DNA of 64,000 nt from Mesorhizobium japonicum MAFF 303099. GTDB taxonomy: Bacteria; Pseudomonadota; Alphaproteobacteria; Rhizobiales; Rhizobiaceae. The stretch covers positions 3,380,001 through 3,444,000 of the forward strand of contig NC_002678.2 of assembly GCF_000009625.1 (NCBI RefSeq), in the 5' to 3' direction. Each line of letters opens with the position of its first letter. The first letter of the stretch is position 1. Of this stretch, positions 27,811 through 27,999 are shown piece after piece. The notes under the pieces are model-generated. The model saw only the letters and a program-made list of their open reading frames with translations. It did not search any database and was not told the DNA's origin. Position numbers and translations under genes: made by a program.

Positions 27811-27999
27811 TGTGTGTTTGGAATCATGCATAGTTAGGGGCGCCACGGACCAGGTGTTTGCCTGATCCGTGGCGGCGGTCGAGAGCCCGTCACCCCTCAG
27901 GTGCCGAAACCGTGGATGAGCTGGGGCCCGACCGCCTTCTTTGTGAACCCGAACAGTTGCAAGGGGCAAGCCCCCGCACACAAGGAAGGGACCGAGGAG
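27811..27999 (+). ncRNA. Predicted IS110 bridge RNA with target-binding and donor-binding loops
   Basis: A 5' hairpin (27841-27853 with 27862-27874) is followed by two guide loops. Target loop: stem GCGGTC/GACCGC (27875-27880, 27930-27935) and GCCC/GGGC enclose CACCCCT (27891-27897), identical to the left target 27804-27810. They also enclose GGATGAG (27914-27920), the complement of the right target CTCATCC. Donor loop: ACAGTTGC (27953-27960) equals the right end 28939-28946. CACACAAG (27977-27984) complements CT plus the left end (27809-27816). A GGGG/CCCC hairpin separates these donor guides. Position, size (189 nt) and guide logic match the bridge RNAs described for IS110 elements. Confidence 0.85.

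Follow-up and report, generated by a model that had tools for sequence, protein, structure and literature searches.

A candidate bridge RNA and a threonine at the nucleophile position in an IS110-group insertion sequence of Mesorhizobium japonicum

The locus described here raises two linked questions: whether the non-coding leader of an IS110-group insertion sequence encodes the RNA that directs its insertion, and which residue of the recombinase would link to DNA when a threonine stands at the position of the catalytic serine. The window, by which is meant the whole stretch of DNA analysed, comprises 64,000 nucleotides of the M. japonicum MAFF 303099 genome. It is concluded below that the leader is very probably the bridge RNA of the element and guides its insertion, for which the observed basis is two sets of guides, a conserved structure, covariation of guide with target, precise junctions and empty sites. 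That a naturally active subclade of bridge recombinases uses a covalent threonine nucleophile, with serine and threonine exchanged repeatedly within it, is held with less assurance, as the likelier reading of the protein data. A sequence-only reading of the window had already proposed an IS621-like bridge-RNA architecture, which the guides at both loops, the conserved structure and the guide–flank covariation now support; the threonine, the frame shift in the transposase and a covariation-rich 5' stem-loop were absent from it.

The element and its gene are laid out in the window as follows.

27804 to 27810, forward strand: left target flank CACCC plus core CT, equal to the left target guide and the same sequence in empty sites.
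27811 to 28945, forward strand: insertion sequence, 1135 bp, from comparison with a second genomic copy.
28000 to 29067, forward strand: IS110 recombinase gene, frame shifted, 355 amino acids instead of 314.
28705 to 28707, forward strand: ACC, the Thr236 codon; in alignment this residue falls on catalytic Ser241 of IS621.
28916 to 28917, forward strand: point where 10 bp are deleted, close to the gene's 3' end, from comparison with the second copy.
28939 to 28952, forward strand: right end ACAGTTG, core CT and right target flank CATCC, from sequence match to the guides.

Both junctions are precise: the left one reads CACCC-CT and the right one CT-CATCC. The joined flanks, CACCCCTCATCC, occur eight times in the same genome, against no occurrence of the reversed pattern used as control, and by eye these empty sites are surrounded by the same palindromic mosaic repeat that flanks the element in the window. 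Insertion is therefore taken to be scarless and specific to a site around a two-base-pair core. Copies of another IS110 element, of serine type and considered further below, are found near two of the eight empty sites. The long left non-coding end (189 bp) and short right end are those of the IS110 group, the distance from stop codon to right end being 11–12 bp in the intact copies L002 and L006, and the donor end of the element reads ACAGTTG-CT-TGTGTG. From their translations, inspected by eye, the neighbouring genes are a leuC-like gene (isopropylmalate dehydratase large subunit, 26055–27464) on one side and methyltransferase-like and amino-acid transporter permease-like genes (29010–30505) on the other.

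Membership of the IS110 group appears secure on grounds of homology and architecture. Both PF01548 (DEDD/RuvC) and PF02371 (Tnp) score above cut-off, as does NF033542, 'IS110 family RNA-guided transposase' (186.6 bits against a cut-off of 140). Over 121 aligned rows the four DEDD columns hold D in 117 with four gaps, E in all 121, and D in 120 with one R in each of the last two. The IS621 sequence in the PDB matches residues 7–304 of the window protein (E 5.9e-29), and the best Foldseek match is 8wt9_A (E 8.8e-18, 30% identity).

The 10-bp deletion shifts the frame of the window copy such that reading continues through the right end into flanking DNA (28916–29067). The second copy is intact, being 1145 bp long with no substitutions relative to the window copy and ten extra bases. 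The window copy may thus be immobile unless served in trans; it was probably itself moved by an intact enzyme and is now altered at its C-terminus. Broken relatives were also seen, L004 with a C-terminal frame change and L021 with an internal frame shift in the transposase.

In the leader, a 5' stem-loop comes first, followed by the target loop and the donor loop, each made up of a left guide, a hairpin and a right guide; the gene comes after them.

27842 to 27873, forward strand: 5' stem-loop of the predicted bridge RNA, 7 of 13 pairs changed on both sides.
27875 to 27935, forward strand: target-binding loop, with stems 27875–27880/27930–27935 and 27885–27888/27924–27927 and tip hairpin 27900–27902/27909–27911.
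27891 to 27897, forward strand: left target guide CACCCCT, from sequence match and guide–flank test.
27914 to 27920, forward strand: right target guide GGATGAG, from sequence match and guide–flank test.
27936 to 27988, forward strand: donor-binding loop, with stem 27936–27939/27985–27988 and hairpin 27963–27967/27970–27974.
27953 to 27960, forward strand: left donor guide ACAGTTGC, from match to the right end.
27977 to 27984, forward strand: right donor guide CACACAAG, from match to the left end.

All four guides had been picked out in the sequence-only reading, and each has the partner claimed for it. In the target loop, the left guide is identical to the left flank plus core (27804–27810) and the right guide is the reverse complement of CTCATCC at 28946–28952, in other words complementary to the right flank; in the donor loop, the left guide equals the right end of the element plus core C (28939–28946) and the right guide is the reverse complement of the core CT plus left end (27809–27816). 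The framing stems GCGGTC/GACCGC and GCCC/GGGC are where that reading placed them, as is the GGGG/CCCC donor hairpin, inside 27963–27974. By simple arithmetic, about one 190-base leader in 86 would be expected to hold a given 7-mer, and four matches at the correct loop positions are therefore not attributed to chance. The right donor pairing is shorter in relatives, where the 8-base match is not kept; leaders from Sinorhizobium and Devosia have, by eye, some 4–6 pairs including wobble. At the circle junction, TTGCTT across the core is followed 16–17 bases on by a –10-like box in four of seven junctions (window, AR07, Devosia and Sinorhizobium), although the scores are weak and without a shuffled control, and in the window this is not the best-scoring pair.

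As to the structure, the case appears to be carried by comparative evidence rather than by single-sequence folding, since the fold of the leader alone is only moderately better than that of shuffled sequences (z –1.8; 9 of 200 shuffles as good). The comparative set consists of eight leaders: the window, Mesorhizobium CJ3sym, B2-7-1, isolate AFS083231, AR07, a Devosia metagenome-assembled genome (MAG) and two Sinorhizobium. Over 35 tested pairs, 96.4% of cells can pair and 11 pairs are changed on both sides (seven of the 13 in the 5' stem-loop, three in the target-loop stems and one in the donor stem), values which none of 500 shuffles reaches; sliding the partner strand destroys the signal. 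One of five covariation measures, that of further pair types, was attained in 18 of the 500 shuffles. These figures are to be read with the caveats that the structure was hand-drawn on these same eight sequences, which favours drawn over slid versions, and that related sequences can beat shuffles without structure. Both loops, whose conservation in relatives the sequence-only reading had named as a check, are thus conserved with compensatory changes across the eight leaders. No Rfam family reaches its gathering threshold over the window, and the eight Rfam matches in 27700–28100 are all at E 0.6 or worse and below gathering.

A covariance model built from the eight leaders was searched over 95 sources, with E-values that are rough. 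Matches at E ≤ 0.01 were obtained in 23 of 29 distant loci (L023–L051) with IS110 transposases of 33–41% amino-acid identity, the other six being L042 (E 0.088) and L031, L033, L036, L043 and L047, each without a hit. Among 397 genomes of the order, the source genome included, 20 match at E ≤ 0.001. To set guides against flanks, the guide sequences were taken from the model columns and the right end was placed with nothing but the left donor guide, after which the right flank was checked against the right target guide. From 120 alignment rows 46 were dropped, namely 27 partial RNAs or antisense palindrome hits, three with gapped guide columns and 16 without a right end; put differently, 90 complete RNAs had readable guides, the right end being within reach in 74 and not recognisable in 16. 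The 74 kept rows include places present twice (for example L009 and L099), duplicates which the use of unique guide sets removes.

The sequence-only reading had suggested that the target guides should change with insertion site while the donor guides stay fixed. When this was checked, four lineages (window, AR07, S. meliloti LMB1 and Devosia) were found to have target guides that vary with the site, and all have ACAGTTG as left donor guide and right end; neither this check nor that of structural conservation went against the sequence-only reading. The right guide GGATGAG goes with the flank CTCATCC in the window lineage, GAATGAG with CTCATTC in LMB1, GGTGGAG with CTCCACC in the Devosia MAG and AGGTGAG with CTCACCT in 10 of the 12 AR07 copies, the other two having CTCATCT (6/7 instead of 7/7). 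The left guide of AR07 matches fully in six copies, with one mismatch in five and two in one. The Devosia element is one of the 16 dropped, the contig ending seven bases past the junction, and matches 7/7 by eye. Further flanks that match their own guide are CTCACTC, CTCTGCC, CTCTGTC, CTCCCCC, CTCTAGC and CTTTTTT. Over 44 unique guide sets, the five non-core bases of the right flank agree at all five positions in 25, at four in eight, at three in four (L039, L048, L115, L122) and at 0–2 in seven (L029, L037, L044, L050, L113, L121, L134). Averaged over the 25 distinct right guides, agreement is 3.6 of 5, compared with a shuffled mean of 1.76 and maximum of 2.52, such that none of 10,000 shuffles reaches it. 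The 40 distinct left guides give 2.55 against 1.93 of 5, again with 0 of 10,000, a value blurred by misplaced left ends; the left-end rule often picked a wrong position (L061, L040, L024) and it is the right-guide statistic that is relied upon.

The target is not peculiar to this element. A second IS110 element of the home genome, present as four identical 1145-bp copies (L002 minus strand, L101, L102 and L138), is of serine type and encodes a protein 34% identical to that of the window; it sits at the same kind of site, and its target guides, CACCCCT and GGATGAG, are those of the window element, whereas its donor guides differ. GGATGAG also occurs in the lineages L026, L049, L060 and L124. 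Since several IS110 lineages carry GGATGAG, the repeat appears to be a shared address for them, reached by convergence or guide exchange. A separate observation concerns another lineage with several copies (L062, L066, L089, L090 and L040), which lies at a neighbouring position of a similar-looking palindromic repeat, with left flank CACCTT and right flank CTCTCCC, the left junction being TT-core-like and the right CT. In L041, L048 and L051 the core is apparently CC, the right guides ending in GG and the left guide being TGGGTCC.

Turning to the enzyme, the motif GLTPRRYE-S-G of IS621 aligns without a gap with GLAPYDFD-T-G in the window protein, S241 being identified as the motif serine by residue numbering that takes the PDB chain to be offset by two residues. 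In IS621 a covalent 5'-phosphoserine is assigned to S241, the mutation of which abolished recombination in the assays reported (PMC11208158, accessible text). The serine of the IS110 Tnp domain is described as highly conserved and is not an entry criterion for the group (PMC11208160, accessible text). Serine is present in the relatives L004, L017 and L056; the element is here called a variant because Thr236 replaces it in the window lineage. That this is an ordinary IS110 member and nothing more was considered and rejected, the threonine position arguing against it.

In an alignment of the window protein with the best 120 of 2461 homologues, the Ser241-aligned column is T in 67 of the 121 rows and S in all the other 54. 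Among 59 distinct IS110 proteins of the loci compared, all with the column filled, T is found in six, all of the window clade, and S in 53. A quick tree, with SH-aLRT support only, needs about 15 S/T changes, at least seven of which are forced by well-supported branches. In the window clade the threonine is preceded by Asp, Glu or Gln wherever the motif match is clean (65 of 65). A different arrangement was seen in a phylum-wide sample of 30 PF02371 loci, where the two residues before Gly or Ala, in the 29 readable cases, are Ser-Thr (12), Ser-Ser (7), Gln-Ser (6), Glu-Ser (3) or Leu-Ser (1). Ser-Thr-Gly motifs, common among these proteins (L153–L182), presumably mark IS1111-type elements, an assignment we take from the motif; threonine stands at the same place in them but always after Ser, unlike in the window clade. 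The 120 best-listed homologues of one such protein, L157, have Ser-Ser in every case. The loop bearing the motif (residues 230–246) has pLDDT under 50 in the AlphaFold model, and the placement of Thr236 consequently rests on sequence.

Thr236 would accordingly occupy the role of DNA-linking nucleophile, forming a 5'-phosphothreonine as Ser241 forms its serine counterpart in IS621, and family members with Ser-Thr-Gly motifs may use threonine likewise. Thr-type elements appear to have moved recently: the two home copies differ by the 10-bp deletion only, and in AR07 the element occupies 12 different sites, its 1146 bp being the same in 11 copies and showing a single difference in the twelfth, with threonine in all 12. 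Pairwise dN/dS among four Thr-type genes (L002, L003, L005, L006) is 0.09–0.14, and retargeted guides are found within the Thr clade in the window, AR07 and Sinorhizobium lineages.

Mobility of the copies could also be had from elsewhere, if the bridge RNA were real, the Thr-type recombinases inactive and the copies moved in trans by a serine-type IS110 enzyme. Candidates for such help exist, in the four identical home copies that share the target guides and in a full-length serine-type gene of AR07, 39% identical. These relatives are, however, just 34–39% identical, the donor guides of the home element differ (ATAGTCG against ACAGTTG), the Thr-type genes are under purifying selection, and a column that has changed some 15 times and holds threonine in 67 of 121 rows admits no residue other than the two. 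Help in trans is on this showing unlikely.

Equally doubtful is the proposal that Thr-type enzymes use another residue of the loop or domain. Within the loop, the window protein offers Thr238 (+2) and some relatives a serine at +8; elsewhere, an alignment of 51 rows shows no variation at Ser58, Ser196 or Ser205; and in the Ser-Thr-Gly proteins elsewhere in the family the first serine could serve. Yet of the 67 Thr-type segments eight have Thr at +2 and 30 have Ser or Thr at +8 (a count using a looser pattern, in which one or two proteins are possibly mis-placed), so that the loop has no general hydroxyl, and the preceding residue is the acidic or amide one described above. Ser196 and Ser205 align with serines beside Ser241 in IS621, which still needs Ser241 (PMC11208158, accessible text).

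The idea that homologous recombination between the repeats, and not transposition, multiplied the copies draws on the fact that the targets are repeats, but it is very improbable given that the 12 AR07 copies, with differing left flanks, all switch at the same base and that the home empty sites resemble joined flanks. Least credible of all is that the leader, lying directly upstream of the gene and with a single-sequence z of only –1.8, is a cis-acting untranslated region such as an attenuator, its flank matches due to chance or shared descent: in many lineages a changed guide goes with a changed flank, and compensatory structure lies outside the guides, by which this reading is already contradicted.

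For the bridge-RNA reading, then, the target CACCC-CT-CATCC, which lies within the palindromic repeat, would have both its strands paired to the first internal loop, and the second internal loop would pair with the excised circle where its ends are joined. Transcription of the RNA, assembly of an RNA–protein complex, circle formation and strand exchange would proceed as in IS621, with Thr236 making the covalent 5'-phosphothreonine link.

The closest parallel is IS621 itself (IS110 group, Escherichia coli; PDB 8wt6–8wt9), with which, on the accessible text of PMC11208160 and PMC11208158, the element shares part order, guide polarity, CT core, an RNA upstream of the gene, a REP-type target and DEDD plus Tnp domains. 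It differs in target, donor (ACAGTTG-CT-TGTGTG), host and the threonine at the Ser241 position. The ISCro4 recombinase (PDB 9t56), compared by protein sequence match alone, is similar over its full length (E 1.2e-27). NGRIS-19a of Sinorhizobium fredii NGR234 (P0049), also compared by protein alone, is 73% identical and of Thr type too; its name was not found in a literature search. The IS1111 group, with its seekRNA, has a homologous, RNA-guided recombinase, as here (PMC11187229, accessible text), the RNA lying downstream of the gene in that group and upstream in the window (PMC11208160 and PMC11187229, accessible text). Natural reprogramming has already been reported there, for the IS1111-family element ISEc11 and for ISXne4 (PMC11187229, accessible text). 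The bridge RNA itself is in this regard a further IS621-like case; what sets the element apart is the threonine at the nucleophile position. The word 'threonine' is absent from the main texts of PMC11208160, PMC11208158 and PMC11187229, and no statement on a nucleophile threonine in IS110 was found in a literature search over the main texts of mostly open-access journal papers.

The window, AR07, Sinorhizobium and Devosia elements constitute a natural retargeting series with a constant left donor guide, mostly tied to palindromic repeats. If the role proposed for Thr236 is correct, a secondary hydroxyl can perform this chemistry, perhaps with altered rates of cleavage and religation, which would bear on enzyme design.
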